Shown: in pieces, positions 5,012 to 28,873 of the stretch
Position numbering within the stretch: position 1 is the stretch's first letter
Layout: each line of letters starts with the position of its first letter
DNA from: Vulcanimicrobiota bacterium
Lineage (GTDB): Bacteria; Vulcanimicrobiota; JAJTBE01
Reading direction: 5' to 3'
DNA: 34,580 bases
NCBI GenBank assembly: GCA_021107945.1
Contig: JAIORV010000102.1
Location: forward strand, 1-34,580
Notes under the pieces: generated by a model
What the model saw: the letters and a program-made list of their open reading frames with translations, nothing else
The model's database searches: none
Told to the model about the DNA's origin: nothing
Made by a program: the position numbers and the translations under genes

Positions 5012-5076
5012 GGCGGCGAGACGCCACCCCCACCCCCACCATTATCACAATGTCGGTAGCTGTGGCGTCTCGCTGC
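5012..5076. repeat. GC-rich palindromic repeat, copy 1
   Basis: Arms GCGGCGAGACGCCAC (5013-5027) and GTGGCGTCTCGCTGC (5062-5076) are inverted with one mismatch and enclose CCCCCACC runs and TGTCGGTAG. The unit is found in the opposite orientation at 10012-10072, sharing AGCTACCGACATTGT and ATAATGGTGGGGG on that strand. It has the GTAG header (5056-5059) next to a palindrome, as in REP elements. Located in the spacer between the methyltransferase and the first YbjN-like gene. Confidence 0.75.
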
Positions 5077-5127
5077 AGAATAATGTTTATTAGAAATAGT
5101 TAATCATATTAAGCCGGTGAATTTATC

Positions 5128-5688
5128 GTGAATTTTAATCGAGAAAAAGAAAACGATACTCAGTCAGCAATGAAGAAAAAACTGGCGAAGATAATCAGTC
5201 AGTTTTCAGAAAAAAGAGAAATGAATGTAGGTGAGATTGAGGACGGATTTGTTCTTGATATTCCTGTTGAGTATAAATCAATAGCCAAACATTTACTTCC
5301 CGGCAAGGAAGTAAGACACCAATTTGTGTTTGTCACCGGCAATCGAAAAATGTCCAATGGTAAAGAGATTTATCAGATATTTACGGTATGCGCTCCGGAA
5401 GAAGATACTTTTTATCGAAACGCTCTCTTTCTGAACGCTAATCTCACATTTGGAGCGTTTGCCATTGCCGATGTGGAAACGATATCAAGTGACTTGAAAA
5501 GAGAGGTCCTTTGTCTGCCCACCGGCGAAGTTAGAGTTGCCCAGGTAAAAAAAGAGAAGTGTTTTGTGCTGGTGGATACATACATGGTAAGCGAGGCCGA
5601 TGCAATTCAAATGGAAGCTTCCATAATGACTATTGCAAAGGCGGGAGATAAACTTGAAAAAATGCTTATGAAGGAAGATATCAGGTAG
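5128..5688 (+). CDS. YbjN/CesT-like protein, first of a tandem pair
   Basis: Function unknown. GTG start at 5128 with GGTGA (5116-5120) before it; an ATG at 5170 is possible but lacks a ribosome binding site. The 186-aa protein shares blocks with the next gene: DGFVLDIPVEY, QFVFVTG, FTVCAPEED.FY, ALFLNANL.FGAFAI, FVLVDTY and a C-terminal helix IAKAGDKLEKML. The order (beta strands ending in a long amphipathic helix with a 'lone Asn/Leu ... gaFai' block) resembles YbjN and type III secretion chaperone-like folds; this is inference from pattern, not a search. Compared with its paralog it carries an extra ~25-residue hairpin (ISSDLKREVLCLPTGEVR) before FVLVDTY. No signal peptide or membrane segment. 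Confidence 0.7.
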   Translation: MNFNREKENDTQSAMKKKLAKIISQFSEKREMNVGEIEDGFVLDIPVEYKSIAKHLLPGKEVRHQFVFVTGNRKMSNGKEIYQIFTVCAPEEDTFYRNALFLNANLTFGAFAIADVETISSDLKREVLCLPTGEVRVAQVKKEKCFVLVDTYMVSEADAIQMEASIMTIAKAGDKLEKMLMKEDIR

Positions 5689-5694
5689 AGTATT

Positions 5695-5765
5695 TATTCA
5701 GATCGTCCACTGTAGGAGAGGCTTCCAGCCTCGATATTCGAGGCAAGACGCCGCTCTTACATTAC
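5695..5765 (+). repeat. GTAG-headed REP-like palindrome between tandem paralogs
   Basis: Begins with TATTCAGATC, then CACTGTAGGAGAGGCTTCCA and GCCTCGAT. The header GTAG is followed by a GAGGC-TTCCA-GCCTC stem-loop. A diverged copy lies at 27678-27727 (GCAGGAGAGGCTTCCA). A second small palindrome, TCGATATTCGA, follows. Confidence 0.65.
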
Positions 5766-5793
5766 AGTCAAATAACAGTAGGAGGTAATTAGC

Positions 5794-6333
5794 ATGGTTG
5801 ACGTCTGCGCGGAGAAATATTTTCAGAAACTCACTGAAATTGTTCAAGAATTTGCCGGTAAAAATCAATATGAAATCAGCGAAATTGATGATGGCTTCGT
5901 TCTCGATATTCCCGTAGAATATGAAGTTTTCGAAGACGAAGAGGATATTATAGATGACCTTGATTCATTAGAAACTGAACTGCCGATGGATATTGAAATC
6001 CCGGACAATATCAAATCAAAAATTGAACATAGACGACAATTTGTTTATGTCACAGGATACCACAAGGGCCCTGACAACGAGGACATGTTCCAGGTCTTCA
6101 CTGTCTGCGCTCCTGATGATGAGAGGTTTTACAAGAGTGCGCTTCTCCTGAATATGAACCTGCCGTTTGGGGCAATCGCCCTGTCAAATGTGGAGGGCGA
6201 GACATATTTTGTGCTTGTGGATACTTATCTTGCCGAATCCGTCACCGCTGAAGAATTGAATGCGTCAATCTCCACACTGGCAAGAGCCGGGGACAAAATG
6301 GAGCGCATGCTGATCGGCGATGATCTGGCATAA
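5794..6333 (+). CDS. YbjN/CesT-like protein, second of a tandem pair
   Basis: Function unknown. AGGAGG lies 8 bases before the ATG. The 179-aa protein aligns with the preceding one along its length: SEIDDGFVLDIPVEY, RRQFVYVTGYHKG, FTVCAPDDERFYKSALLLN, LPFGAIALSNV, YFVLVDTYL and ARAGDKMERML. It differs by an acidic insertion of roughly 25 residues after DIPVEY (EDEEDIIDDLDSLETE) and lacks the hairpin insertion seen in the first copy. The pair looks like a gene duplication followed by divergence of loops while the core stays fixed. No export signal. If the CesT-like fold is right these could be adaptor or chaperone proteins, but no secretion gene is near. Confidence 0.72.
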   Translation: MVDVCAEKYFQKLTEIVQEFAGKNQYEISEIDDGFVLDIPVEYEVFEDEEDIIDDLDSLETELPMDIEIPDNIKSKIEHRRQFVYVTGYHKGPDNEDMFQVFTVCAPDDERFYKSALLLNMNLPFGAIALSNVEGETYFVLVDTYLAESVTAEELNASISTLARAGDKMERMLIGDDLA

Positions 6334-6339
6334 GGAAGT

Positions 6340-6585
6340 TGGATGATGGAAAATGGAAATTGGAAATGTAGGAGGGACGTCCCCGTCCCGATAACGGATG
6401 ATGGAATGCGTAAGCCGGATAACGGAAGTCAGAAGTGAGACTGTCGAATAATTGTTTTTTTCATCGCAGAGGAGAAGTAAAGAAAAATGGCTATTTCTCT
6501 GTGGCCTCTGTGGTAAAATAATGGTCTTAAAAATCTCGGTTATCTCCCATTTCCCATTATCCATTTTCCATCTTCCTTCTTCTAC
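6340..6585. repeat. Composite cluster of four repeat families upstream of radA
   Basis: In order: GATGGAAAATGGAAATTGG type (6342-6362); a GTAG-headed palindrome (6367-6397; GGGACG-TCCC-CGTCCC stem, continuing to GATAACGG); GGATAACGGAAGTCAG (6417-6432, identical to 1408-1423); a CGCAGAG ... CTCTGTGG hairpin (6465-6516); and TCTCCCATTTCCCATTATCC (6548-6567), the complement type of the first. Only the last ~20 bases before radA, with GGAGG, look like ordinary leader. Confidence 0.7.
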
Positions 6586-6602
6586 TATGGAGGACATAAA
6601 AT

Positions 6603-7979
6603 ATGGCAGGAACAGGAAAAAAATTTATATGCCAGGAGTGCGGGGCGGTTTATCCAAGGCTGCAGGGGCAATGCTATCACTGTGGTGCATGGAACTCGGT
6701 GGTCGAAGAGATAGAAGAAGGGAGGGAGCGAAAAAATCTCATGGGATTTTCGCCGGGGAAGATTGATCCCACCCCGATTTCCGGAATTGAAACAACCGAC
6801 ACAGACAGGATGAAAACAGGAATCGGTGAGTTCGACAGGGTAACCGGCGGAGGTATAGTACCCGGATCACTGATATTAATCGGTGGAAATCCGGGCATCG
6901 GCAAGTCAACACTTCTTCTTTCCGTCTCAGACAGCATCGCAAGAAGGCATGAAAAAACAGTCCTGTATGTAACGGGTGAGGAATCGCTTCATCAGATCAA
7001 GATCAGAGCGAAAAGAATGGGGATCGAGTCCGACAATCTTCTTGTTTTTCCGGAAATAGAGCTTTCCCAAATTTTATCTCAAATTACCACTCTCAAGCCT
7101 GCCCTTGTTGTAATTGATTCGATACAAACAATGATTCATCCCGGCATCGAGAGCGCGCCGGGCAGTGTATCACAGGTAAGGGAATGCGCCGGACTTCTAC
7201 AGCAGGTATGCAAAAAATCAGGGATCCCCATCATCCTTGTGGGACATGTGACGAAGTCGGGAGCAATAGCCGGCCCCATGGTAATGGAGCATATTGTCGA
7301 TTCCGTTCTGTTTTTTGAAGGAGAAAATATAAGGGATTTTCGCATACTGCGCGCCCTTAAAAACAGGTTTGGCTCAACCCAGGAAATCGGCGTCTTTACA
7401 ATGGAAGTCGCGGGGCTAAGGGAAGTTGAGAACCCATCTGAATTCTTCCTTTCACATCACTTGAGGGAAACATCAGGCTCCGTTGTCGTTCCGGTTGTTG
7501 AGGGAACAAGGACAATATTGGTGGAGATCCAGGCTCTTGTAACCAAGTCGGGGTTTGGAATGCCCGCCAGAAGAGCGACAGGTGTCCCGGTAAACCGGGT
7601 GTCGGTTCTCCTTGCCGTTCTGGAGAAACGGGCAGGAATGCTCCTGGGCGGGAGCGATGTTTTTGTTAACGTTGTGGGAGGGGTTCAGGTTGATGAGCCT
7701 GCAATAGACCTGGGGATATGCCTTGCCGTTATATCGAGCCTGCGTGATCGCCCTATGCCGCCCGCCACATGTGTTGTGGGAGAAATAGGACTTGGGGGAG
7801 AGGTAAGGGGAATCTCCAGGGTTGAGAACAGGATCAGGGAATGCCTGAAAATGGGATTTGAAAAAATTGTACTGCCGGAGACAAATGTAACGGAAAATCT
7901 GAGAAAAAATGAAATTCAACTCTTAAAGGTAAATACTCTGAGGGAAGCAATAAGCAAATCACTGACTTCATCGCAATAA
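6603..7979 (+). CDS. radA: DNA repair protein RadA
   Basis: RecA-like ATPase that promotes branch migration during recombinational repair. The 458 aa and domain order are canonical: N-terminal C4 zinc finger (C10, C13, C24, C27), Walker A GGNPGIGKST (about residues 94-103), Walker B-like LVVIDSIQT, the RadA-specific KNRFG motif (about 253-257), and a C-terminal Lon-protease-like domain (VNVVGGVQVDEPAIDLG ... GEIGLGGEVRGI) without a need for protease activity. GGAGG at 6588-6592 precedes the ATG. The MATE exporter follows after 51 bases on the same strand. Confidence 0.97.
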   Translation: MAGTGKKFICQECGAVYPRLQGQCYHCGAWNSVVEEIEEGRERKNLMGFSPGKIDPTPISGIETTDTDRMKTGIGEFDRVTGGGIVPGSLILIGGNPGIGKSTLLLSVSDSIARRHEKTVLYVTGEESLHQIKIRAKRMGIESDNLLVFPEIELSQILSQITTLKPALVVIDSIQTMIHPGIESAPGSVSQVRECAGLLQQVCKKSGIPIILVGHVTKSGAIAGPMVMEHIVDSVLFFEGENIRDFRILRALKNRFGSTQEIGVFTMEVAGLREVENPSEFFLSHHLRETSGSVVVPVVEGTRTILVEIQALVTKSGFGMPARRATGVPVNRVSVLLAVLEKRAGMLLGGSDVFVNVVGGVQVDEPAIDLGICLAVISSLRDRPMPPATCVVGEIGLGGEVRGISRVENRIRECLKMGFEKIVLPETNVTENLRKNEIQLLKVNTLREAISKSLTSSQ

Positions 7980-8030
7980 ATGCAGGAGAATGATTAATAC
8001 TTTGAATCAAATAATGAGGACTACCACCGG

Positions 8031-9383
8031 ATGAAATCGGGTTATAAATATAAATACCTCACACAGGGTAATGTTTCCAGCAGTCTCTTGAAACTCGCAC
8101 TTCCCTCGATGTTTGCCCTGGTTTTACATAATGTATTCGGACTTGTTGACATTTATTTTATAGGGAAACTGGGCAGTGAGCAACTTGCCGCGGTGGCGAT
8201 GAGTAGTCTTCTGGTAAGGTTTATTATTACCTTTGTATTCGGAGCTTCGCTTGGCACGGTAGCCCTGGTTTCGAGATTTCAGGGAACCGGTAATAGAGAA
8301 AAGGCAAGTGATGTGGGCAGGCAATCGGTTTACCTTGCATTTCTTCTCTATATTATTGTTGCAACGTTAATTAATATTGCCCTGGAACCCCTGCTTGTCT
8401 TTCTCGGAGCAAAATCCTCATTTTTACCCAATGCCCTTGTATATGCCCGGATAATAATTTTCGGCAGTATTATCCTGTTCATCAGCAGCGCAATAAATGC
8501 ATTCCTCAGAGGCAGCGGTGACGCGATGACCCCGATGTGGGCGCTTATTATTGCAGTTGTGCTAAATGTCATACTTGATCCTATCTTTATCTTCGGTTAT
8601 ATGGGGGTTCCAGCTCTCGGAGTTGCCGGATCGGCAATTGCAACCGTCATATCACGGGCGGTGGGAATGCTGTTCCTCATTTATCATATATTATTCAGCA
8701 AAAGAGAGCTTTCATTCTCAATTTTTCCTGTGAAGCCAGATTTTTCTATAATGTGGCGAATACTTCGAATCGGGGTATTCGGTTCAATACAGGGAATGGT
8801 CAGGAATCTCTCCTCTCTTGCGCTGGTGAAGATAATCTCGGAATACGGCACAGCGGTCATTGCCGCGTATGGCGTGATCGTCAGACTCAGAATGTCCGTA
8901 CTCCTGCCGATAATGGGTTTGAGTATGGCTACAGCGATAATGGTGGGACAAAACCTAGGAGCGGGAAAACCGGAAAGATCAAATAGCGCGGCCTGGCTTT
9001 CGATTGCGTATGGAGAAATTCTGATGCTTGTGGGTATGGTGTTATTCTTTTTTAAGGGTGGAGATTTCGTTTCTTTCTTCAATAAAGATCCTGATGTGAT
9101 TGCAAACGGCGCGCTCTATTTTCATTACTTCGCTCCGGCACTTATTTTGGCTTGTGTTTCAATTATTCTGGAGAGGGCGTTAAGCGGCGCGGGCGACACT
9201 ATTTCACCGATGATAATCACAATTGTTTTCACTCTTTTCCTGAGAATCGGACTCGCTCTTTATCTCAAGAAATTTCTCGGATTAGATGGAGTATGGATTG
9301 CATGCGCAATATCAATCGTTATTCAGGGACTGGTGACCGCAGGATGGTTTAAAATGGGTTTCTGGAAGAAAAAGAAAGTCTAA
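8031..9383 (+). CDS. MATE family efflux transporter
   Basis: Inner-membrane antiporter of the MATE/MOP superfamily, exporting cationic or drug-like compounds using an ion gradient; substrate unknown. The 450 aa length and about 12 hydrophobic segments fit. The N-terminal half has GLVDIYFIGKLGSEQLAAVA and FLRGSGDAMTPMWALI, and the C-terminal half repeats the pattern with ALSGAGDTISPMIITIV, showing the two-fold symmetry of the family. Upstream sequence has only a weak GAGGA motif (8017-8021). It lies 51 bases after radA and is probably read through from it. Confidence 0.93.
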   Translation: MKSGYKYKYLTQGNVSSSLLKLALPSMFALVLHNVFGLVDIYFIGKLGSEQLAAVAMSSLLVRFIITFVFGASLGTVALVSRFQGTGNREKASDVGRQSVYLAFLLYIIVATLINIALEPLLVFLGAKSSFLPNALVYARIIIFGSIILFISSAINAFLRGSGDAMTPMWALIIAVVLNVILDPIFIFGYMGVPALGVAGSAIATVISRAVGMLFLIYHILFSKRELSFSIFPVKPDFSIMWRILRIGVFGSIQGMVRNLSSLALVKIISEYGTAVIAAYGVIVRLRMSVLLPIMGLSMATAIMVGQNLGAGKPERSNSAAWLSIAYGEILMLVGMVLFFFKGGDFVSFFNKDPDVIANGALYFHYFAPALILACVSIILERALSGAGDTISPMIITIVFTLFLRIGLALYLKKFLGLDGVWIACAISIVIQGLVTAGWFKMGFWKKKKV

Positions 9384-9640
9384 GCAGTGTCCAAAAAACC
9401 TTATACTGCAGATTTACTATAAACCCTAAAAATGTATTTGGAATTCTACAATTACCGTATAATAGCTTATTATCGGTAAAAGAGTGCATTTCTCGTCAAC
9501 ATAAAACCATATCGGAGAATGCCTGAAATATGATGTGCATAATTTGCAGTAAATCCTGCCTACAGTAGATTCTCTGTGCCTGCGCTGAACTTGTTTCAGT
9601 GTCCTCTGTGGTGAAAAAATACGTGCATATTGTACTATCC

Positions 9641-9690
9641 GTTTATCAGGATGAGGACATCCCTCCTACAGATTCGGGCTGCTTTATCAG
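9641..9690 (-). repeat. GTAG-headed REP-like palindrome, near-identical to 28785-28834
   Basis: On the minus strand it reads CCCGAATCTGTAGGAGGGAT and continues through a GGGATG-TCCT-CATCCT hairpin to GATAAAC. Over 38 bases it differs from 28797-28834 at one position, and the homology extends about 12 bases further upstream. The two copies are 19 kb apart. Confidence 0.8.
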
Positions 9691-9833
9691 TTTTCCGAAT
9701 CCCTTTGTGGTCCCTGAAAACGAGTTCCCTGAAATAAATTCAGGGCAGGCAGGGCAGGCTTTTGCGGTAAAAAAATGTCATCAAAGATTAGGGTTTTAAC
9801 CGGGGAAAGAAGGGAATAATTGCCCCCCAGTTT

Positions 9834-9960
9834 GTCCCATGAGAATAACCCCCGGTTTTAACCGGGGGAAAGAAAGGAATCCTACCTCCCTTACTTTCTT
9901 AGCCACTTCAGTGGCTTCCCTGTAAGGAATGCAGGAAGGGCAACCGCTCCCCATCTTCAA
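9834..9960. repeat. CCCCCGGTT palindrome repeat unit
   Basis: Contains CATGAGAATAACCCCCGG, the 9-bp-arm palindrome at 9849-9868, then GCCACT-TC-AGTGGC (9902-9915) and TTCCCTGTAAGGAATGCAGG. The first part is found again (reverse orientation) at 20058-20095 and at 28873-28912. The second part corresponds to GACGCTTCAGCGTC at 28940-28953. Confidence 0.65.
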
Positions 9961-10011
9961 AAAAAGATCTTGGACTATAAACTGTTCTATAATTAAAGAT
10001 GTCCATTTCTT

Positions 10012-10072
10012 CTGCGGCGAGACGCCGCAGCTACCGACATTGTTATAATGGTGGGGGCGGCAGACCGCCGCC
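10012..10072. repeat. GC-rich palindromic repeat, copy 2 (inverted relative to 5012-5076)
   Basis: CTGCGGCG-AGA-CGCCGCAG is a perfect 8-bp stem with a 3-base loop, followed by CTACCGACATTGT, ATAATGGTGGGGG and a GGCGG-CAGA-CCGCC stem. In copy 1 the equivalent stem keeps pairing through G-T pairs only, so this copy has the stronger structure. Confidence 0.75.
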
Positions 10073-10421
10073 CAATCAACGAAAATTCTTGTAGGAGTGG
10101 TATCTTGAAAATCAAGGTTGTCAGTCTATCTTGTGTTAGGGGCTGAATAATTTGAAGCATAGAAATTAAATTATTTTATAAAAAGTCTTTGTTTTATCAA
10201 TCATACCAAGACTTCAAGCGGATTTACGCGATTGAAATTATAATATTGTTGAAAATTTTCTGAAATATCACAGATGTTCTCTGTTCACATGATGATAAAT
10301 GAAGGATAATTGAAGTGGCAGGTGAACTTATTTAGGGTTAGAAATTGGGTTTATTAACTCAATGGCTTGTTTGTTGTTATTGGATTTAAGTTATTTTTAT
10401 CAAATTATTTTGGTGTAATAT

Positions 10422-18839: not shown

Positions 18840-18840
18840 C

Positions 18841-18952: not shown

Positions 18953-19195
18953 GCATGCAAACTGTCATTCTGAGCGGATCAAGAATGAATTACTTAACTC
19001 CGACAACTTCCTCAAAGACGGGATTTTCTTGATCTACGGAGATTCACATAGCGAAGAATCTCTTGAACATTTGAACAGATGAGATCCTTCGCTGATCAAT
19101 ATATCGGAGATAAGTAAAATCCATTCTTGCCAAAGTTGATCCAGTAAAGCAAAGTGATCGTATTCCGCTCAGGATGACAGCGTGGACGACTCTCT
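18953..19195. repeat. Nested-palindrome element of the GTCATTCTGAGCGG family
   Basis: The left outer arm TGTCATTCTGAGCGG (18963-18977) is matched in inverted form by CCGCTCAGGATGACA (19167-19181). Inside, GCGAAGAATCTC (19052-19063) pairs with GAGATCCTTCGC (19081-19092). The left half is repeated near the window end (34439-34530) with shared TTCCTCAAAGACGGGATT-like sequence. Open frames through it are repeat-derived. It occupies most of the 404-base gap 18840-19243, in which I see no gene. Confidence 0.7.
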
Positions 19196-19996: not shown

Positions 19997-20011
19997 GGTA
20001 CTCACTATCGG

Positions 20012-20262
20012 GAAGACGCTGAAGCGGCTAAAGGAGTAAAGGGGAATAGGTTCCTTTCGTTCCCCCGGTTAAAACCGGGGGTTAATCTCATGGGAGGTTT
20101 AAAAACCTCCGTTACAATTAAATCTGATGCGAGATATGAGAGGCAGAAGACTAAATCCGTTTTCCGTTCTCCGTTTATCGGGACGGGGACGTCCCTCCTA
20201 CAGATCTGACATCCGACATCCGACCTCCGACCACCGACCACCGACATCTGACCTCCGTTATC
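20012..20262. repeat. Composite repeat cluster between metG and tlyA
   Basis: In order: AAGACGCTGAAGCGGCT (relative of 28940-28956); CCCCCGGTTAAAACCGGGGG (20062-20081) with CTCATGGGAGG and GGTTT-AAAA-ACC palindrome (20085-20105); a TGAGAGGCAGAAGACTAAAT block (20136-20155), inverted copy at 23502-23532; a GTAG-headed palindrome on the minus strand (20175-20210) identical over 36 bases to 24351-24386; and a tandem array of 7-bp CGACMTC-type units (about 20207-20256). GTTATCCG copies follow and run into the metG stop. Confidence 0.75.
20175..20210 (-). repeat. GTAG-headed REP-like palindrome, identical to 24351-24386
   Basis: Minus strand: GTCAGATCTGTAGGAGGGAC continuing through GGGACG-TCCC-CGTCCC to GATAA. 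All 36 bases match the plus-strand copy at 24351-24386, about 4.2 kb away and in opposite orientation, so these two copies are recent or kept identical. Confidence 0.85.
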
Positions 20263-20271
20263 CGTCCTTCG

Positions 20272-21819
20272 TTATCCGTTTTCCATCGTCTCTATCCTTG
20301 GGAAAAGGGGGCTCTGCATCTTTACTGTCTGCCCTGCAGGGAAGAGCCCGATATTGACTGAATCAAATTTCTTTTTCCTGAGAATATCCCTGAAACCCAA
20401 TCTTCTCCACATTTTAATTGCGGTACGGGGCACAAACGGCATTACAAGGACGGTTATTATCCGTAAATAATCCATAAGTGTGTAAAGAGTCGTGTTTAAT
20501 TCTTCCTTATCTTCCTTCTTGTAAAGGTCCCAGGGAGCTTTATTATCTATATATCTGTTCAATTCTCCGACCAGATCCCAGAGGGATATAAGAGCTTCTC
20601 TGAACTCCAGCTTATCCATCAATTTTTTATACTCTTTCTTGACTTCCTTGAACACCCTTGCAAGATTCCTTTCGCGCGACCCTAACTTTCCTCTTTCGGG
20701 AACCATGCCGTCACAATATTTTATTGTCATCGAAATTGATCGACGGAAGAGGTTTCCAAGGTCATTTGCAAGCTGATTATTAAATCTGCTCGTCAGCCTT
20801 GGTATGGAAAACTCCAGGTCATCCCCGGGAGATACTTCTCTGAGGAAGTAGTATCTCAGGGCATCGGAGCCGAATTCATCGACTATTTCCACCAGATTTG
20901 TCGATCCATGCAGGGAGCGGGAAATTTTCTTGCCCCCTGATATGACCCAACCCTGAGAAAAGATTGTCCCTGGAAGCGGTATTTCAAGCGCAAAACAAAT
21001 TGCGGGCCATATTATCGTGTGGAAGTTGACCATGTCCCTTCCTATTATATGGATATCGGCAGGCCAGTATTTTTCGAACTCGTCCGATCCATATCCCACG
21101 GCGGCTATATAATTAAGAAGGGCATCCAGCCAGACATATATTTTGAAATCAGGGTCTGAAGGTACGGGAATTCCCCATATAGGCCCTTTTCTTGTAATAC
21201 ATATATCTTCAAGCTCTCCCCTCAGGGTATCAATAGTGTTCTTCATACATTCCTCCGGTTTTATAAAACCGGGGGTTTTCTCAAGGTAATCCAATATTTG
21301 ATTCCTGTATTTTGAGAGTCGGAAAAAGTACCCTTGCTCTTTAACTCTTTTTACAGAGTGCCGGCATTCCGGGCGTGGGCATCTTTTTCTCTCAACCATT
21401 GATTCAGGCCAGAATGTCTCACATTCTATGCAGTACCATCCTGAAAATTCGCCTGTATATATGTCTCCTTTTTCTAACAGCTTCTCAAATATATTCTCAA
21501 CAATTTGTATATGCCTATCATCAGTTGTCCTGACAAAATCATCATATGAAATCTGCAATTTTTTCCATGCCGTGATAAAATCTCTTACCATTCTATCAAC
21601 AAATTCCTGTGGTGTTTTTCTGTGTGATTTTGCCGCTTCCTGAACCTTTTGGCCATGCTCGTCACTACCGGTTATAAGATGAACGCTGTCTTCCACCATT
21701 CGCCTGTATCTTGCACAACAATCGGCCATAATTGTCGCATAACCTGCGCTGAGGTGCGGAATCTCGTCGGGATAATAAATAGGTGTGGTTACAAAATATG
21801 ATTTGGTATTTTTTGACAT
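20272..21819 (-). CDS. metG: Methionyl-tRNA synthetase with atypical HIGH and KMSKS motifs
   Basis: Charges tRNA-Met with methionine. The 515-aa protein follows MetRS closely: FVTTPIYYPDEIPH, ITGSDEHGQKVQEAA, TTDDRH, a zinc knuckle (CIEC ... CPRPEC), the WGIPVPSDP and YVWLDALLNYI blocks, HIIGRDMVNFHTIIWPA, and an anticodon-binding helical domain with NRYIDNKAPWDLYKK. No C-terminal EMAPII-like tRNA-binding domain. The two class I signatures are changed: HIGH reads H22-L-S-A25, and KMSKS reads KISRS (near residues 296-300), both in a fully open frame. Either this is a diverged but working enzyme or a second, repurposed copy. ATG at 21819 with GAGGG 8 bases upstream. The TAA stop lies in a GGATAACG repeat. 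Confidence 0.9.
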   Translation of the reverse strand: MSKNTKSYFVTTPIYYPDEIPHLSAGYATIMADCCARYRRMVEDSVHLITGSDEHGQKVQEAAKSHRKTPQEFVDRMVRDFITAWKKLQISYDDFVRTTDDRHIQIVENIFEKLLEKGDIYTGEFSGWYCIECETFWPESMVERKRCPRPECRHSVKRVKEQGYFFRLSKYRNQILDYLEKTPGFIKPEECMKNTIDTLRGELEDICITRKGPIWGIPVPSDPDFKIYVWLDALLNYIAAVGYGSDEFEKYWPADIHIIGRDMVNFHTIIWPAICFALEIPLPGTIFSQGWVISGGKKISRSLHGSTNLVEIVDEFGSDALRYYFLREVSPGDDLEFSIPRLTSRFNNQLANDLGNLFRRSISMTIKYCDGMVPERGKLGSRERNLARVFKEVKKEYKKLMDKLEFREALISLWDLVGELNRYIDNKAPWDLYKKEDKEELNTTLYTLMDYLRIITVLVMPFVPRTAIKMWRRLGFRDILRKKKFDSVNIGLFPAGQTVKMQSPLFPRIETMENG

Positions 21820-22010: not shown

Positions 22011-22592
22011 ATGGAAGCGGTCAGAAAGATTTTAAACATCTTGTTCTGGATAATATTTATAGGTGGTCTTATCTTTTTACTTATCTTGGTGATTGGCGGG
22101 GCATTTCCCATAAACTGGGGGACTTCCGGCCAAACAGCGAAATTTGATGTTGCCAAGCTAGGATGGGAATTAAACGATCCCTCCAATGGGACGTTTACCA
22201 TTGTGCATGATGAACAAAAGAAAAAAGTAGGATGGGGAGCACTGCAATTTGATTATAAATATAAGGATAAGCCGCGGCCGGGCTTCCATTCAACAGCATA
22301 TGAAATGGAGGGACTTGTTGATATCAAGTTCTGGATGAAAGCAAGAAAGCCCTGTATCTGGAGAGTTCAGATAAAGAGGAAGAGTGACGGAAAGTTATTC
22401 TATCGCACCTTCAGAATCGGGACCAAATGGAAAGAATATACCGCCAATCTTTACGAAATGAGAGACGAGGCCAGGTATAAAGGTAAATTTAGCAAAAATG
22501 ACCTGAAAAAGTGGGTCAATTTCATTGATATCTCAAACAAGAGCAGTGGAGCTAATACAATATGGGTTGATAATATAGTAGTCAGGAAATAG
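22011..22592 (+). CDS. Membrane-anchored protein with galactose-binding-like beta-sandwich
   Basis: Function unknown. ATG at 22011 with AAGAGG 8-9 bases upstream; a GTG at 22002 overlaps that site. Of 193 aa, residues ~8-33 form one TM anchor (ILFWIIFIGGLIFLLILVIG), leaving the rest outside. The outer part has the strand pattern of carbohydrate-binding/CIA30-like jelly-roll domains: GWGALQFDYKYKD, VDIKFWMKARKPCIWRVQIK, FRIGTKWKEYTANL and the terminal IWVDNIVVRK. This fold call is inference from pattern. The tatD gene begins 9 bases after the stop, so the two are probably co-transcribed from the divergent region facing metG. Confidence 0.7.
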   Translation: MEAVRKILNILFWIIFIGGLIFLLILVIGGAFPINWGTSGQTAKFDVAKLGWELNDPSNGTFTIVHDEQKKKVGWGALQFDYKYKDKPRPGFHSTAYEMEGLVDIKFWMKARKPCIWRVQIKRKSDGKLFYRTFRIGTKWKEYTANLYEMRDEARYKGKFSKNDLKKWVNFIDISNKSSGANTIWVDNIVVRK

Positions 22593-22601
22593 AATATCTC
22601 T

Positions 22602-23378
22602 ATGTATATTGATACACATGCACATATAAATGATGAAGCTTATAATAATGAGTCTCCGGAGAATCTGCTTAAAAGAGCGAAAGAAGATGGGGTTAAATAT
22701 GTCATAGCGCCCGGGGTCAACATTGAATCTTCCCGTCAGCTTAAGGATTATTCGGAGAAGTTCCCCGGTGTCTTCTTTGCCTCCGGTATTCATGCACATG
22801 AAGCCTCGAAGTTTTACGAGAAGGATTTTCTGGAAATTAAGCATCTCCTTGAACACCCGAAAGCGGTGGCAGTTGGCGAGGTTGGCCTTGATTATCATTA
22901 TGAATTCAGCTCGAGAACTTTACAAAAACACGTGTTAAGTCGGTTTCTGAAACTTGCAATCAGCATTGATATGCCTATGATTATACATTGCAGGGAGGCA
23001 GAGGAAGACTTTTATTCGATGTTGAAGGAAATGCCAAAAATTCCAAGGGGTGTAATTCATTGCTACACCGGCGATGTCAAGTGGGCGAAAAAATTTCTTG
23101 ATATGGGATTCTACCTTGGCTTCACCGGAATAATCACATTCAATAAATCAGAAGAGATGAGAGATGTGGTGAGAAATACGCCAATAGACAGGATCCTCAC
23201 TGAGACCGATTCACCATACATGACCCCTTCTCCCCGTAGAAAAATCAGACCCAATGAGCCCCGGTTCGTTACTTTTGTAGCAGATAAGATAGCTGAAATA
23301 AAAGGTCTGAAGAAAGAAGAGGCACTGCCTGTTTTTGTGAAAAACGCAGAAAAGTGCTTCGGAATTGAATTGAAATAA
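22602..23378 (+). CDS. TatD family metal-dependent hydrolase (DNase)
   Basis: Amidohydrolase-fold nuclease with two metals; TatD proteins act on DNA ends and some relatives on D-aminoacyl-tRNA. The 258 aa are typical. Metal and active-site residues are visible: H6-x-H8 (THAH), E93 in VGEVGLDY, H129 (IIHCRE), H153 (VIHCYTG) and D203 in LTETDSPYMTP. The ATG directly follows the previous gene by 9 bases without a clear ribosome binding site, consistent with coupling. In many bacteria tatD follows metG; here metG is divergent and next but one, a loose echo of that association. Confidence 0.93.
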   Translation: MYIDTHAHINDEAYNNESPENLLKRAKEDGVKYVIAPGVNIESSRQLKDYSEKFPGVFFASGIHAHEASKFYEKDFLEIKHLLEHPKAVAVGEVGLDYHYEFSSRTLQKHVLSRFLKLAISIDMPMIIHCREAEEDFYSMLKEMPKIPRGVIHCYTGDVKWAKKFLDMGFYLGFTGIITFNKSEEMRDVVRNTPIDRILTETDSPYMTPSPRRKIRPNEPRFVTFVADKIAEIKGLKKEEALPVFVKNAEKCFGIELK

Positions 23379-23400
23379 TGGAGAGCGGAAGAATAAGTGA

Positions 23401-23552
23401 TTTTTTCACCGCAGAGTTCGCGGAGGACGCAGAGGGAAATAGGATGATAGAATAAGGATAAAGGAGGCAGGAGAACGGATGACAGATGACGGCGAACGGA
23501 GAATGGATTTGGTCTTCTGCCTCTCATCTCTCGCTTCTCGCCTCTCGCTTCC
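23401..23552. repeat. Repeat cluster upstream of acsE
   Basis: TTTCACCGCAGAG with TTCGCGGAGGACGCAGAGGG (23406-23437; a single arm of the CACCGCAGAG family), then GGAGAACGGATGACAGATGA (23471-23490) and CGGAGAATGGATTTGGTCTT with CTGCCTCTCATCTCTCGC (23497-23534), an inverted relative of 20128-20170, followed by TCTCGCTTCTCGCC-type sequence. Only the final GGAGG (23558-23562) belongs to acsE. Confidence 0.65.
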
Positions 23553-23567
23553 AAAACGGAGGTCAAT

Positions 23568-24344
23568 GTGTTTGTAATTGGCGAAAGAATAAACGGAATG
23601 TATAAAGCTGTGAGGGAAGCTATATCGCAGCAGAATTCGGACTTTATAAAAGACCTTGCAAAAGAGCAGATTGCCGCAGGCGCCGACGCCCTCGACATAA
23701 CCGTCGGACCGGTCAAAGGCGATGCAAAAGAGTATATGAAGTGGCTTGTCAATACCGTATCCTCCGCCGTTGATGCCCCCCTTTGCATTGACAGTCCCCA
23801 TCCTGATATTATCGAGGTTGGCGTAAAAGAGGCAACCGGCAGGACAATAATAAACTCGCTCAAAAAATCGCCGGAGCATCTGGAAAAACTGATTCCACTT
23901 GCAAGGGATAATGAATCGGATCTAATATGCCTGCTGATGACGGACAGCGGAATTCCCCACGATATTAACGGAAAGCTTGAAGTCGCGGTGGAGCTTATTG
24001 AAGCAGTGATGATGGGCGGAGTTGAGCCTTCACATATATATTTCGATCCCATCCTTCTCCCCGTGAAAAATGCCCAGAAAGATGTTGCCGACACATTTGA
24101 GCTTATGGATCAACTCAGAATATTGACCGATCCCCCGCCGAATATGATTGTGGGATTGTCGAACCTGAGCCAGAAAGCTAAATACAGAAGTCTTCTGAAC
24201 CGCACATATTGCACTATGGCGATGTCCCATGGACTGACGGCGGCAATAGTAGATCCCCTTGACGAGAAGCTCATGAAATCGATAAAGACAGCGGATATCT
24301 TGCTGGATAGAGAATTGTATGCGAAATCGTACTTGAAAGGGTGA
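23568..24344 (+). CDS. acsE: Methyltetrahydrofolate:corrinoid/iron-sulfur protein methyltransferase
   Basis: Transfers the methyl group of 5-methyltetrahydrofolate to the cobalt of the corrinoid iron-sulfur protein in the Wood-Ljungdahl pathway. The 258 aa match the ~262-aa MeTr family from end to end: GERINGM at the start, AGADALDITVGP, and the folate-binding and catalytic residues D75 (CIDS), N96 (IINS), D160 (YFDP) and N199 (GLSNLS) at the same positions as I recall for the Moorella enzyme. Start is GTG (23568) with GGAGG 5 bases before it. The partner genes (acsCD, acsB, cooS) are not in the window. Alternative: a methyltransferase for another corrinoid protein of the same family. The TGA stop is 6 bases before a repeat unit. 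Confidence 0.88.
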   Translation: MFVIGERINGMYKAVREAISQQNSDFIKDLAKEQIAAGADALDITVGPVKGDAKEYMKWLVNTVSSAVDAPLCIDSPHPDIIEVGVKEATGRTIINSLKKSPEHLEKLIPLARDNESDLICLLMTDSGIPHDINGKLEVAVELIEAVMMGGVEPSHIYFDPILLPVKNAQKDVADTFELMDQLRILTDPPPNMIVGLSNLSQKAKYRSLLNRTYCTMAMSHGLTAAIVDPLDEKLMKSIKTADILLDRELYAKSYLKG

Positions 24345-24350
24345 ACGGAG

Positions 24351-24386
24351 GTCAGATCTGTAGGAGGGACGTCCCCGTCCCGATAA
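24351..24386 (+). repeat. GTAG-headed REP-like palindrome, identical to 20175-20210
   Basis: GTCAGATCTGTAGGAGGGAC onward with the GGGACG-TCCC-CGTCCC stem. It fills the gap between the converging acsE and serine hydrolase genes, and its stem-loop could mark their mRNA ends. Confidence 0.85.
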
Positions 24387-24408
24387 TCGCAAACAATTGA
24401 AATCCACC

Positions 24409-25500
24409 TTACATAAAATCAAATACTTTTTTAGAAATGTTGGCAAAAACTTGTTTCGCCAGGTTCTCGTTCGTGACATTCTTGCTCATCAATATGAGAA
24501 TGTATGGAGCCCCCTTGACAGGATAAATTATTCCGCAGTCGTGCAGTATGCCTGACAATCCCCCCGTTTTATGGGCGCATTCCACACCATTAGGCAGGTA
24601 TTTCGGAATCATATCTTTTCTCTTTTGATCCTTGAGGATAATTAGCATCTTTGCCCGAACCTTACCATCGATCTTTTCTTCCTCGTATAGTTCTTTAAGA
24701 ATAAAAAACATATCCTGCGGTGTGGTGTAATTGTCCTTTCCCCTGTCGATCTCTTCAAATGCATATATTTTCCTGCGCAGTGTCGTGTCTTTCATTCCAT
24801 GCTCTTTTGTAGATTTTTCGATTTCCTCCATTCCCGCAAGTTCAATCAACATATCCGTTGCGGTATTATCGGAGTCTATAATCATAAGCTCAATTAGTTT
24901 TGAGACTTTCCATTTAGAACCTGCTTTCCTGTTCTTCAAGACACCGGAACCGCCTACTTTGTGGGAATTCTTCAACACTACAACATCATCTTCCGTTATT
25001 TTTCCATCCCGTATTTGATTATAGACCTCCAGCATTATAGGAATTTTAATCAGGCTTGCAGATTCAAATACCTCGCCGGCATTTATCTCAATTCTTTCGC
25101 CTGTCCCCGTCTTGTATAAGACCAGCCCGACTTTGCCGGGGAATTTTTTTATTCTTTTCTCTAATTCTTTCTTAAGTTGTTTCATTTTTATTTTTCGTTT
25201 TTCAAGCTTTTGGGATTCATTATTAGCCCTTTTTGCCACAAAAGGATCGTTGTTGTGCGCGTCCTCTTCATCCGTCCTCTTTTTTTCTGTCCGGGAAGGA
25301 GTTGTCGTATTATGAGAACTTGAACTGCCGGCTAACCCCGTGGCATTGTTTAATATCTCTTCAGGACCGATAAGCCTGCCCTGCCTCCAGGGTTTTGATA
25401 ATATGAATAAAGCAAACGAAATCGCAATAACAAGAATGACATAAACCAGAGCTTTATACCTTCCATCGGGCAATTTCGTCTCTTCAGATTTGTTTTTCAT
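24409..25500 (-). CDS. Membrane-anchored class A beta-lactamase-like serine hydrolase
   Basis: 363 aa. An N-terminal TM helix (~17-36) is followed by a polar linker (40-100, Ser/Thr then Lys/Glu rich), and a penicillin-binding/beta-lactamase fold domain from about 115. The three hallmark motifs are present: S149-L-I-K152 (nucleophile and Lys), S210-D211-N212 and K311-T312-G313. A clear ExxxN omega-loop is not evident (the region reads YAFEEIDRGKDNYTTPQD), so beta-lactam hydrolysis is uncertain. A peptidoglycan-related peptidase or esterase outside the membrane is as likely. It lies 59 bases downstream of the NusG-II gene on the same strand, suggesting one transcript. Confidence 0.85.
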   Translation of the reverse strand: MKNKSEETKLPDGRYKALVYVILVIAISFALFILSKPWRQGRLIGPEEILNNATGLAGSSSSHNTTTPSRTEKKRTDEEDAHNNDPFVAKRANNESQKLEKRKIKMKQLKKELEKRIKKFPGKVGLVLYKTGTGERIEINAGEVFESASLIKIPIMLEVYNQIRDGKITEDDVVVLKNSHKVGGSGVLKNRKAGSKWKVSKLIELMIIDSDNTATDMLIELAGMEEIEKSTKEHGMKDTTLRRKIYAFEEIDRGKDNYTTPQDMFFILKELYEEEKIDGKVRAKMLIILKDQKRKDMIPKYLPNGVECAHKTGGLSGILHDCGIIYPVKGAPYILILMSKNVTNENLAKQVFANISKKVFDFM

Positions 25501-25559
25501 ATAAGAAACCTTTCTAACTTGACAGATTATTATAATCTTGCAATTTTATCCATGTCCTG

Positions 25560-25949
25560 TTACCTGGATATAGCGTCCACTTCTCTGTCCTTCCCGGGTT
25601 TTTCCTCTATTATTATAAATATTTTTGAAGGAAGGCATACGATATATTCTCCAGGCTCGTCAATGGGTCCCATTCTTGTGCACCATTTATCGGGACATGT
25701 TGATTCTATAATCCTGACACGTCCATCGTTTACTTTTACCTTTACCGTGCCGCATTTTGTTTTAACATCGAACTTTGCACATTGAAGGGAATATACCTTT
25801 TTCCTGCCGTCCGCATATATAACAAGGCTCTTGCTTTCAACTTTTTTATGAAGAAAGATAAACGACAATATTATGCCGATGATTGATAGAAGGATTATAA
25901 TTATATCATATTTCCTGAGTCCCAACGGTGATTTATCTCTTTCATGCAA
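25560..25949 (-). CDS. NusG domain II-containing membrane protein
   Basis: 129 aa with a TM helix (about 14-33) and a C-terminal NusG_II domain. The domain is recognised by CPDKWCTRMGPIDEPGEYIV followed by CLPSKIFIII, matching the family's C-P-D-x2-C ... G-x-I ... G-x2-I-x-C-L-P pattern; the Cys residues may form a disulfide. Despite the name it is not a transcription factor; it resembles extracytoplasmic proteins often encoded near Rnf or ApbE-type genes in anaerobes, a link not seen here. Start is TTG at 25949; an ATG nearby is out of frame. Followed by the serine hydrolase gene. Confidence 0.85.
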   Translation of the reverse strand: MHERDKSPLGLRKYDIIIILLSIIGIILSFIFLHKKVESKSLVIYADGRKKVYSLQCAKFDVKTKCGTVKVKVNDGRVRIIESTCPDKWCTRMGPIDEPGEYIVCLPSKIFIIIEEKPGKDREVDAISR

Positions 25950-26419
25950 AAGTCCTGGATCTCCATCTTGCTTAAGACCTTTGGATTCATCTGATTTAGT
26001 ATTTGTTTTTCTATCTCAAACAAATATGCCCTTCCCTTTTGTTTATAATTTAGCAGTTTGTCATTGCAGGGAGGCGAGAAGCAAGAAATGAGGACTTCCA
26101 TTTCCCATCTCCCTTTTCCCATCTCCCTTTTCCCACTTCCCGTATTGGCAGGGTTTCTAATGCTGAAATTGAATTTGTTAACAGGGAGAGGTTCGTTGTA
26201 ATTATTCACCGCAAATAGATTTTACAAACTATATTTAACCAAATTAGTTTTGCCGTCAGAGATACATTTTACAATCGGAAATACGACCGTTGGTCTATAA
26301 ATCCCTTGAACCCTCTGTGGTCTCTGTGGTCTTTGCGGTGAAAAAAATGCGAAATAATCCCGGAGTTTCAATGTATTTATAAAAGGGGAGCATATTGTAT
26401 CTCAGAAGGAGGCAGAAAT
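25950..26419. other. 470-base intergenic region: repeats and serpin leader
   Basis: A minus-strand open frame (26209-25901) crosses it and overlaps the NusG-II start by 49 bases. Its front half is repeat sequence, so I do not call it a gene, though the last ~55 codons look less repeat-like. Repeats: GGCGAGAAGCAAGAAATGAGG (26073-26093, split here only as a description) leading into TTTCCCATCTCCC units (26101-26142), then the inverted-repeat element 26198-26346. The last 70 bases form the serpin leader with GGAGG. Confidence 0.6.
26198..26346. mobile_element. MITE-like element with TTCACCGCAAA terminal inverted repeats
   Basis: TTCACCGCAAA (26205-26215) and TTTGCGGTGAA (26332-26342) are exact 11-bp inverted termini around ~116 bases. 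The left end is preceded by the shared GTAATTATTCA (26198-26208). The right arm also carries CTCTGTGGTCTCTGTGGTC, relating it to the CACCGCAGAG hairpin family. No coding capacity. Confidence 0.6.
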
Positions 26420-27640
26420 ATGAAAAGGTTAATCACTCTTATACTTGTTTTGTCGTTTATTATTGTGGGAATATCGTCGCCTGCTTTGGCGGAATCAAAG
26501 GATGTGAAAGCTGTTGTGAAAGGAAATAACGAATTTGCTGTCGCTATTTACAAAAAACTCTGCTCCGGGAAGAAGGGAAACCTTTTTCTGTCACCATACA
26601 GCATTTCAACTGCGTTGGCGATGACATACGGCGGCGCGAGGGGAAATACGGAAATACAAATGGCAAAAGTACTCCATTTCACACTTCCACAAAACAAACT
26701 CCACCCGGCATATGGAAGCTTGATACATGGTCTTAATGAAAGGGGAAAAAAGGGAGATTACAAGTTAACCGTTGCAAACAGATTATGGGCGCAGGAAGGA
26801 TACAAGTTCCTGAATTCCTTTTTGGTGTTGACTGAAAAATATTACGGGGCCGGGCTTCAATTACTTGACTTTCAAAATGCTCTGGAAAAATCACGAGTCA
26901 CAATCAACACCTGGATTGAGAAAAAGACAAACGGAAAGATTGTGGATCTTATAAAGCGCGGAGCGGTAAATAAGATGACCAGGTTGGTTTTAACCAATGC
27001 CATATATTTTAAAGGTGAATGGCAGGACAAATTCATGAAAGAAGCTACAACAAAAGCTGATTTCCATGTTTCCGCCAAGAATAAGATAAAAGTCAATATG
27101 ATGAGAAAGGTAGAGCATTTCAAATTTGCGAAATGCAAGGGGTTCAAGGTTGTTGAAATGCCATATAAGGGAAGGGATATTTCGATGATAGTCTTTCTCC
27201 CCGACAAAATTGACGGCATCAATTCCCTTGAGAAGTCGATGAATGCGGGAAATCTCGATAAATGGATTTCCAAACTGAAATATGAGCGTCTAAGGTTGTC
27301 ATTTCCAAAATTCAAAGTTACATCCAGTTTTCTGCTTGGAAAAGCTTTAAAAGGGATGGGAATGCTCCTGCCGTTTTCCGGAGATGCAGATTTCTCCGGC
27401 ATGACAAAACAGGAAACAGTTTTTATCTCCGAGGTCATTCACAAGACTTTCGTCAAAGTTGACGAAGCCGGCACAGAAGCCGCCGCCGCAACTGCCGTTA
27501 TTATGGCAGGATCCGCCGCGCCCTCAAAGGAGCCTGAGGTGTTTAACGTCAATCGTCCATTTGTTTTCATGATAAGAGATAATAAGTCGGGAAGCATACT
27601 TTTTATGGGAAGAGTGATGAAACCCGATCCGGCGAAATAA
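26420..27640 (+). CDS. Secreted serpin (serine protease inhibitor)
   Basis: Suicide inhibitor of serine or cysteine proteases. The 406-aa protein starts with a classical signal peptide (MKR, hydrophobic core, cleavage after ALA near residue 24). Serpin blocks follow: NLFLSPYSISTALAMTYGGA, TINTWIEKKTNGKIVDLI, LVLTNAIYFKGEW, VVEMPYKG and near the end NRPFVFMIRD with ILFMGRV. The hinge VDEAGTEAAAATAVI (about 347-361) has small residues at P12-P9, as inhibitory serpins require. Counting from Gly351 as P15 puts P1 at Ser365 (MAGS-AAP), hinting at a protease that cuts after small residues. Strong ribosome binding site (AAGGAGG). Flanked by repeats and convergent with the PilZ gene. Confidence 0.95.
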   Translation: MKRLITLILVLSFIIVGISSPALAESKDVKAVVKGNNEFAVAIYKKLCSGKKGNLFLSPYSISTALAMTYGGARGNTEIQMAKVLHFTLPQNKLHPAYGSLIHGLNERGKKGDYKLTVANRLWAQEGYKFLNSFLVLTEKYYGAGLQLLDFQNALEKSRVTINTWIEKKTNGKIVDLIKRGAVNKMTRLVLTNAIYFKGEWQDKFMKEATTKADFHVSAKNKIKVNMMRKVEHFKFAKCKGFKVVEMPYKGRDISMIVFLPDKIDGINSLEKSMNAGNLDKWISKLKYERLRLSFPKFKVTSSFLLGKALKGMGMLLPFSGDADFSGMTKQETVFISEVIHKTFVKVDEAGTEAAAATAVIMAGSAAPSKEPEVFNVNRPFVFMIRDNKSGSILFMGRVMKPDPAK

Positions 27641-27677
27641 ACGGAGTAAAGGATAATGAATCCCATTTGAATTAAAG

Positions 27678-27727
27678 TAACTATTCTGAACCCACACTGC
27701 AGGAGAGGCTTCCAACCTCGATTCGCG
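27678..27727 (+). repeat. REP-like palindrome, diverged copy of 5695-5765
   Basis: TATTCTGAACCCACACTGCA followed by GGAGAGGCTTCCAACCTCGA and TTCGCGGC. The header is GCAG instead of GTAG and the stem has one C-A mismatch, so this looks like a decayed copy. It lies between the convergent serpin and PilZ genes. Confidence 0.55.
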
Positions 27728-27735
27728 GCTCAATT

Positions 27736-28608
27736 TCAGAGATAATTCTGCTCTGATCTCCTTTTTCTTGTTGTATCGAAAATTTCTAAAGGCAGTTCTT
27801 TTATTATCTTCTGATCAAGTTCACCTGATATTGCCTTGTCAATGTATATATTTATCCTGCCTTGATCTTCTTCTCTTATATCTATGAATTGAATTCCCGC
27901 AAGAAACTGTCCGTATGATGTCTCTTTCTGCCATGCAATTCTTGATGCTAAATAAATTGGTGTCTCATCGAAATCCAGCATGATCTTCATATTGATCTTT
28001 TTGTCGAATGGAAGGGGAAATGGATTGGAAATACGCATGCCCTGAGCGCTTAAATCAAGGGTCAATGTATGGAATTTGTCCGTCTTTGCCTCGATTTCCA
28101 TTTCAACGGGCAATACCCGATTCAGACGATATGATCTGCGTTTCCCTTCCTGCGTGTGAACGCTCATGAATTCATCAATTGATTTGACAGTTTTTTCCGG
28201 AGGATTAAGAAATTGGATGCCAATTATGTTTGTGCCGCCAAACATTTTCTTTTTCCATACGCCCCTGACATCAGTGTCAAGAGGATCTTCCACATCAAGA
28301 GTTAGATTAATATGAAACTTGCAGTCAACGGGTAAGTCCAGATCCGTTGTTATTTTCATGCCGCCCTTTGATATGTCAACAATGTAAAAGTATATCGGTA
28401 CAACATCAAGTCCTTCGCCAATCAGACCACTGAATATTTTATTAAGCTTTAAAGCTTTACGTACCGACTTGCGACGTTCCTGCGTAACCTCTCCACTCGA
28501 ATCCCGGACTACCGCCGGAGCTTTCCCGGATTCTGACTCTTCAGGTCTAACTTCTTTCTGGGTAATACCAATTATAGGAGAATTTTTCTGGATTATCTCT
28601 TCTGACAT
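27736..28608 (-). CDS. Tandem PilZ-domain protein (cyclic-di-GMP receptor)
   Basis: 290 aa with two PilZ domains, each carrying both c-di-GMP-binding motifs. Domain 1: R46-KSV-R50 and D78-IS-KG-G83. Domain 2: R157-RSY-R161 and D185-LS-AQ-G190. Each is followed by the beta-barrel strands ending in IIGIQFLNPP and LAGIQFID. The first 40 residues are a polar, probably flexible leader. No membrane segment or output domain, so it presumably acts by binding a partner (motility, secretion or polysaccharide machinery), none of which is encoded nearby. GAGGTG lies just upstream of the ATG. Monocistronic as far as the window shows. Confidence 0.92.
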   Translation of the reverse strand: MSEEIIQKNSPIIGITQKEVRPEESESGKAPAVVRDSSGEVTQERRKSVRKALKLNKIFSGLIGEGLDVVPIYFYIVDISKGGMKITTDLDLPVDCKFHINLTLDVEDPLDTDVRGVWKKKMFGGTNIIGIQFLNPPEKTVKSIDEFMSVHTQEGKRRSYRLNRVLPVEMEIEAKTDKFHTLTLDLSAQGMRISNPFPLPFDKKINMKIMLDFDETPIYLASRIAWQKETSYGQFLAGIQFIDIREEDQGRINIYIDKAISGELDQKIIKELPLEIFDTTRKRRSEQNYL

Positions 28609-28784
28609 GGGAACACCTCTTGAAATTAATGACTTTATTTATCTTTGATATTCATCAGCAAAATCCTTTCCCGATAGGGAAATTAGGAATTTTACCTCTG
28701 AGGAAATTAGGAAATCAGGAAAACGGAATATGGATAGCGGATCGCGCAGGACTGATGTTTTTTTTTACAAAGAATTTCAGAGAA

Positions 28785-28834
28785 TTGATAAAGTAGCCCG
28801 AATCTGTAGGAGGGATGTCCTCATCCCGATAAAC
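28785..28834 (+). repeat. GTAG-headed REP-like palindrome, near-identical to 9641-9690
   Basis: CCCGAATCTGTAGGAGGGAT onward, with stem GGGATG-TCCT-CATCCC. Compared with the 20175 and 24351 copies (GGGACG/CGTCCC) both sides of one base pair have changed together. Confidence 0.8.
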
Positions 28835-28850
28835 GAAGGCAGAATCTCTG

Positions 28851-28873
28851 GTAGCGGAGGTTTTCAAACCTCC
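28851..28873 (+). repeat. GTAG-headed palindrome with GGAGGTTT arms
   Basis: GTAGC followed by GGAGGTTT-TC-AAACCTCC, a perfect 8-bp stem. A related inverted form (GTAACGGAGG header on the minus strand) is at 20081-20113, in both places next to CATGAG and the CCCCCGG unit. Confidence 0.7.

Follow-up and report, generated by a model that had tools for sequence, protein, structure and literature searches.

The GTAG-1 family of repetitive extragenic palindromic (REP) elements, whose described hosts are Pseudomonas, Xanthomonas and Thioalkalivibrio, is distinguished from GTAG-2 by an unpaired dinucleotide after the GTAG head and by a conserved 3-nt tail (Di Nocera et al. 2013, PMC3733652). The REP-associated tyrosine transposases (RAYTs) recognise a folded single strand, in which the GTAG helps to choose the cleavage site, cleave at CT and form a covalent phosphotyrosine; the dissemination of REPs has been described as poorly understood (PMC8266576). 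Two inverse REPs that form one replicating unit are called a REPIN (Bertels and Rainey 2011, PMC3116915). Here we analyse GTAG-headed hairpins in a stretch of 34,580 nucleotides (the window) from a Vulcanimicrobiota bacterium (GenBank assembly GCA_021107945.1, contig JAIORV010000102.1), which is contig C58 of a 5.56-Mb assembly estimated as 98.6% complete. A preliminary description made from the letters alone had taken these units for one REP system of the kind mobilised by RAYTs. Its REP and RAYT part stands, as the genome carries REPs and RAYT genes flanked by them, and its single system does not: there are several REP families and at least two RAYT lineages, REP-A and REP-B each having its own. 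We consider it very probable that the GTAG units are REP elements, i.e., non-autonomous single-strand mobile DNA served by RAYTs encoded elsewhere in the genome. The REP-RAYT partnership is itself an already known type of system; what is new is this complete instance from an uncultivated lineage, in which a single genome combines two RAYT lineages with several REP families.

The window was scanned for GTAG followed, after a gap of 0-4 nt, by a perfect stem 5 bp or more in length. Eleven such hairpins were found, as against a mean of 0.73 (maximum 3) in 30 dinucleotide shuffles, so the excess is real and the recurrence reported earlier holds. The positions first given were right within about 30 nt; in the scan the GTAG starts at 5056, 5712, 6368, 24360, 28806, 28851 and 32349 on the plus strand and at 9669, 10034 and 20201 on the minus strand. 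Further units, absent from the earlier list, were located at 32413 (minus strand, stem GGGGTT/AACCCC), at 1754 (minus strand) and, as a GCAG-headed copy, at 27699 (plus strand). The units split into at least four distinct families (A/Ap, D, E and C), and a single family is ruled out, as distinct types can be told apart by stem, spacer and preceding dinucleotide. The REP-A layout is GTAG-GA, a 6-bp stem, a TCC(C/T) loop, the returning 6-bp stem and GAT, and its window members start at 6368, 24360 and 28806 (plus) and at 9669, 20201 and 32413 (minus). The units are as follows.

6368-6392, plus strand: REP-A unit GTAG-GA-GGGACG-TCCC-CGTCCC-GAT
9645-9669, minus strand: REP-A unit with a GGGATG stem, wobble at the last base (CATCCT)
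20177-20201, minus strand: REP-A unit with a GGGACG stem, inside a heptad array
24360-24384, plus strand: REP-A unit with a GGGACG stem
28806-28830, plus strand: REP-A unit GGGATG-TCCT-CATCCC
32389-32413, minus strand: unit of a REP-A subfamily, GGGGTT-TCCC-AACCCC, paired with the C unit
5712-5735, plus strand: REP-Ap unit GAGGCT-TCC-AGCCTC (sister type of A)
5737-5761, minus strand: decayed inverse partner of the Ap unit; Ap/F heterodimers occur elsewhere in the genome
27699-27722, plus strand: decayed Ap unit with the head GCAG
32349-32373, plus strand: C unit GTAG-A-GGCTGGTC-TCCC-GACCAGCC
1732-1754, minus strand: C-like unit
28851-28873, plus strand: D unit GTAG-C-GGAGGTTT-TC-AAACCTCC, heading a 110-130 bp composite
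5056-5078, plus strand: E unit GTAG-CTGTGGCG-TCT-CGCTGCAG, arranged tail to tail with an inverse partner at 5011-5034
10012-10034, minus strand: E unit GTAG-CTGCGGCG-TCT-CGCCGCAG
32325-32429, no strand: 105-bp element with perfect TATTCAGACC/GGTCTGAATA inverted ends around the C and A heterodimer

REP-A shares with GTAG-1 the unpaired dinucleotide between GTAG and stem and the conserved 3-nt tail, as well as a 6-bp stem, a short loop and subfamilies that arise through paired stem changes. It differs in its stem and loop sequences, in being single or tandem where GTAG-1 families are often dimers or clusters, in being embedded in arrays of a 7-bp repeat, and in having a host outside the Proteobacteria.

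Genome totals were obtained by pattern searches over the whole genome, while statistics come from a sample of 835 kb, about 15% of the genome, made up of the window and 40 stretches of 20 kb each; the stretches were picked by contig, two of them for their RAYT genes, and the sample is not random. The genome-wide count proposed in the preliminary description gave hundreds of copies. A strict family-A pattern that does not require pairing had 339 matches and its reversed form none, and a second family, REP-B (GTAGC-GCGGGTTT-TT-AAACCCGC), is present in 112 copies. In the sample GTAG heads a hairpin in 8.3% of its occurrences, compared with roughly 1-3% for the other tetranucleotides tested. The GTAG thus stands directly 5' of a short palindrome in many copies, and placement of REP-A is mostly intergenic: 10 of 75 copies lie in open reading frames in a sample that is 83% coding, and divergent spacers hold just 3 of the 61 intergenic family-A copies.

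The paired change first noticed between two subtypes (GGGACG/CGTCCC against GGGATG/CATCCC) is real, and is one among several stem pairs, others being GGGGTT/AACCCC, GGGATT/AATCCC, GAGGCT/AGCCTC and GTGGCA/TGCCAC. When copies were chosen by head and tail, with the best-pairing frame taken where loop length was ambiguous, full stem pairing was found in 96 of 106 family-A copies. Among 20 distinct stems the pairing was 0.86, as against 0.554 ± 0.043 with the 3' halves redealt, and 0 of 2000 redeals reached 0.86. A second set of 24 distinct units from three genomes, in an ungapped alignment, had 94.4% of cells paired versus 76.4% when shuffled and double-sided changes in 27 cells versus 8.4, and pairing went down to 26-52% when the partner was slid by 1-3 columns. 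GA and GAT are invariant in the 24 rows, partly by selection, because the search pattern itself required both. Hairpin pairing, not stem sequence, is what family A keeps, and the earlier suggestion that the hairpin itself is conserved is borne out beyond both shuffled and slid controls.

There are 12 Y1_Tnp genes in the genome. None was found on the window contig C58, in agreement with the earlier statement that the window has no RAYT gene. The RAYT genes considered here are listed below.

C1, 39.2 kb: RAYT-A gene L009
C1, 58.6 kb: RAYT-A gene L007, with one in-frame TAA
C21, 33.9 kb: RAYT-A gene L011
C66: RAYT-B gene L010
C7: RAYT-B gene L012

The search for Y1 genes flanked by the same palindromes succeeded: inverted family-A units flank L007, L009 and L011 on either side, REP-B units that all share one orientation flank L010 on either side, and L012 has one REP-B unit, upstream. 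RAYTs flanked by their own REP (REPtrons) therefore exist for both REP-A and REP-B. Both flanks of L011 carry its own 3-nt-loop variant, GGGATG-TCT-CATCCC, of which the genome has 7 exact copies, two being these flanks; this is what one would expect of a gene and a cognate hairpin that move as a pair or co-evolve. The four RAYT proteins tested (P0001, P0002, P0003 and P0006) scored 93-140 bits against a cut-off of 80 with the NCBI REP_Tyr_transpos (REP-associated tyrosine transposase) model, the longer L008-type protein falls slightly below that cut-off, and the L005-type protein passes the IS200 model, not the REP-associated one. The nearest solved chain is TnpA-REP 4er8, and HIH/HLH and the tyrosine are invariant in the RAYT alignment, as in a RAYT/TnpA-REP domain. 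Absence of both RAYTs and covariation had been named beforehand as the outcome that would count against a REP system; both are present.

RAYT-A resembles the group 3 (subclass 2.5) TnpA-REP proteins in its DHIH, WQ and Tyr-x3-NP motifs (PMC8266576, PMC6006769), in having D at the position of E. coli E100, in its association with short perfect-stem REPs, and in its place in a 14-row tree with long branches, where Pseudomonas and Pseudoalteromonas proteins are closer to it than E. coli TnpA-REP is. It differs in being 27-35% identical to plasmid-borne gammaproteobacterial members, in its three copies in one genome, in a host lineage outside the dominant taxa (Xanthomonads, Pseudomonads), and in a tyrosine motif that reads YCHENP instead of the published YI[VI]ANP. 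The overall format appears to be that of GTAG-1 REPs with group-3-like RAYTs. Five other Y1 proteins of this genome (L001-L005, in G000 C73, C54, C83, C30 and C149) have the Y---Q--HH signature, which is that of subclass 1.2, mostly restricted to Cyanobacteria and Bacteroidetes (PMC6006769).

A collection scan found near relatives of RAYT-A in a Chloroflexi metagenome-assembled genome (MAG) (L013, 49% identity) and a WOR-3 MAG (L014, 43%). On either side of both genes stand hairpins of the same frame, in one orientation, with other stems (TGTAGGAGAGCCTTTCCAGGCTCGA and TGTAGGAGGGGTTTCCTAACCCCGA), and frame copies number 25 in the Chloroflexi MAG and 60 in the WOR-3 MAG. RAYT-A is absent at E <= 1e-20 from 148 other genomes of the same phylum, in which the frame matched once in total. 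The same frame recurs beside a more distant RAYT carried by a Pseudomonas plasmid, where GTGG-GA-GCGAGC-TT-GCTCGC-GA lies upstream of the gene. In the 14-row tree, which is small and has long branches, RAYT-A groups with the Chloroflexi and WOR-3 proteins (support 93/95), and that clade with gammaproteobacterial and Chlorohelix proteins (84/91), E. coli TnpA-REP falling outside. The cross-phylum pattern is a clean one, with related RAYTs in three phyla, the same hairpin frame and different stems, and its patchy distribution suggests horizontal spread. The WOR-3 unit GGGGTT-TCCT-AACCCC matches a subfamily in the genome of the window letter for letter, which raises the possibility of recent transfer or mis-binning. 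The WOR-3 MAG (G150; L064, L069, L072) also has REPINs that join CGACT-stem and GGGTT-stem units at spacing 69, and in the Chloroflexi MAG (G149; L082, L084, L089, L097) TGTAGGAGACCCCTTCTGGGGTCGA is paired with TGTAGGAGAGCCTTTCCAGGCTCGA at about 110 bp with GTAG outside.

REP-A is surrounded by a degenerate 7-bp repeat, CGGANNN. Period-7 autocorrelation is 0.45 in both flanks versus 0.28 in REP-free spacers, with a rise at multiples of 7 only, and heptad periodicity was scored in 39% and 34% of REP-A flanks versus 2% of REP-free spacers. Among the GTAG families this context is essentially A-specific, family D having a weaker upstream signal. Spacers of the sample hold 138 CGGANNN arrays, and a shuffled control at the same threshold none; 66 intergenic arrays have no REP-A. 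The arrays seen in the window are these.

20110-20290: CGGANNN array
6335-6440: CGGANNN array
1393-1441: CGGANNN array

GGA triplets within 21 nt keep one phase relative to the hairpin (62 of 77 upstream, 84 of 107 downstream), and after removal of copies with similar flanks (66 reduced to 43) 69 of 104 and 69 of 98 are in phase. For single copies the signal is partial, clear on at least one side in 24 of 43 and on both in 9, and the phase lock fades past about 40-60 nt on each side. The register across the element is restored by removing 28 nt and not by 24-27 or 29-31, lengths of 28 plus or minus a multiple of 7 being equivalent in this respect. Array and REP are on the same strand in 55 cases and on opposite strands in 2. 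GTAG is immediately preceded by CT in 47 of the 75 family-A units and in 9 of the 10 Ap units, and by AC in 21 of 23 REP-B units. In the literature library that was searched, nothing on point came up about heptad repeats associated with REPs. A suspected GGATCT ending of REP-less arrays did not hold, being present in 4 of 66. The WOR-3 REPs adjoin a period-7 repeat of different sequence (AATGTTN), with a weaker signal (0.34).

RAYT genes and hairpins of this genome stand in cognate pairs, with head, loop and tail conserved and the stem covarying, and these RAYTs would be the enzymes that move these units, most likely by copying the hairpins. By analogy with the E. coli and group-3 enzymes, a RAYT (HUH, one tyrosine) would recognise the GTAG, the loop and the folded stem on one exposed strand and cut at the dinucleotide adjoining the head; its tyrosine would hold the 5' phosphate, and the unit would be rejoined elsewhere. 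The CT before GTAG in A and Ap units is consistent with the published CT cleavage, and the geometry of REP-A suggests that its unit is 28 nt long (GTAG...GATAAA) and sits immediately 3' of a CT, which in many cases closes the heptad CGGATCT. REP-B would use its own RAYT lineage and a different preceding dinucleotide (AC). Several points weigh against mobile REPs served by RAYTs: movement was not observed; REP-A is single or tandem, not in REPINs; none of the 12 Y1 genes is a RAYT flanked by units of family C, D or E; one RAYT-A copy has its in-frame TAA; and when REP-A flanks were joined in search of empty sites, only other heptad arrays and tandem copies were found, so that no empty site is claimed. 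That the hairpins are instead transcription terminators or RNA-stabilising elements under host selection, with a secondary link to RAYTs, would fit their position in spacers, their avoidance of divergent ones (3/61) and the kept pairing. We consider it very improbable, since the unpaired GTAG-GA head and GAT tail are conserved as much as the stem, no U-run rule applies, both orientations occur within unidirectional spacers, the same units stand on both sides of RAYT genes, and frame and RAYT occur together in three phyla and are absent together. The genome also has IS200-like Y1 transposases (L001-L005), and the units might be the ends of decayed IS200/IS605 insertion sequences; this is hardly credible, as the flanks of L001-L005 contain no GTAG hairpins and the genes that are flanked are RAYT-type, above the REP-associated cut-off and below the IS200 one.

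The heptad phase lock is the part most worth following, since it provides an internal ruler of a kind that REPs seldom offer: it might show where the moved unit begins and ends, which strand it prefers and what its target is. On the simplest reading, GTAG...GATAAA would be inserted precisely and strand-specifically behind the CT of CGGATCT. We tentatively put at not far short of even the fuller proposal that REP-A is a 28-nt unit, GTAG...GATAAA, which the RAYT inserts strand-specifically and without target duplication at one fixed position, behind CT, in a degenerate heptad repeat that occurs genome-wide, the arrays serving as landing pads and the register as a ruler of the unit's ends. It is also quite possible, at somewhat below even chances, that the heptads grew around REP-A by hairpin-promoted slippage in 7-nt steps, or that REP and heptads spread jointly, and that the phase lock is no trace of insertion. 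Outgrowth or joint spread would account for the weakening of the lock beyond about 40-60 nt and for periodicity being far commoner beside REP-A than in REP-free spacers, and 28 is itself a multiple of 7; the 66 arrays of the same heptad that lack REP-A, the strand agreement of 55 to 2, as strand-specific insertion into a target would give, and the restoration of register by 28 nt alone among 24 to 31 speak for insertion.

Pairs of REPs were also compared with REPINs. Neighbours of REP-A under 200 bp comprise 11 tandem A-A pairs and no inverted A-A pair, so that REP-A, unpaired with another REP, does not form the inverse replicating unit of a REPIN. Ap/F and C/A each join two different units in inverse orientation, GTAG being on the outer side as in REPINs, and three intact Ap/F pairs (L034, L035, L045) share a fixed spacing of 48. 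The Ap/F, C and D units look like REPIN-type heterodimers, which differ from the described REPINs in combining two stem types and, for some, in lying inside an element bounded by terminal inverted repeats. Such elements are 80-105 bp long, with TATTCAGACC inverted ends enclosing REP heterodimers, the window copy being complete at 105 bp. Loose TATTCAGACC pairs numbered 58 versus 44 in a reversed-order control, and because this barely exceeds the control only near-perfect pairs enclosing GTAG units were accepted. The TATTCAGACC repeat flanks none of the Y1 loci, and no transposase with such ends was found. Copies outside the window are as follows.

L026:13704-13808: TATTCAGACC-ended element
L057:14276-14377: TATTCAGACC-ended element
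L035:12887-12968: TATTCAGACC-ended element
L023:3003-3082: TATTCAGACC-ended element

D units continue into a composite of 110-130 bp that contains a second hairpin. Hybrids of this kind have a precedent, because degenerate GTAG-1 units joined to unrelated hairpins are described from long terminal inverted repeats of Pseudomonas (Di Nocera et al., PMC3733652). The composites and the E-type dimers of the window are listed below.

28851-28960, 9835-9920 and 20010-20095: 110-130 bp three-hairpin composite (GGAGGTTT, CCCCCGG...CCGGGGG, GACGCTTCAGCGTC), repeated in spacers
5011-5078 and 10012-10070: E-type dimers, two hairpins tail to tail, with the conserved spacer ...CACCATTATAACAATGTCGGTAG..., many copies in the genome

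Two other kinds of repeat were noted in the window. Repeats of the type TGTCATTCTGAGCGG..., 69-74 bp long and 72-86% alike, lie at 18963-19031, 34440-34508 and 19106-19179, and spacer repeats of the type TTTTTTCACCGCAGAG...GCAGAGGG lie at 2526-2551, 6496-6521, 9596-9620, 23401-23436 and 26311-26346.

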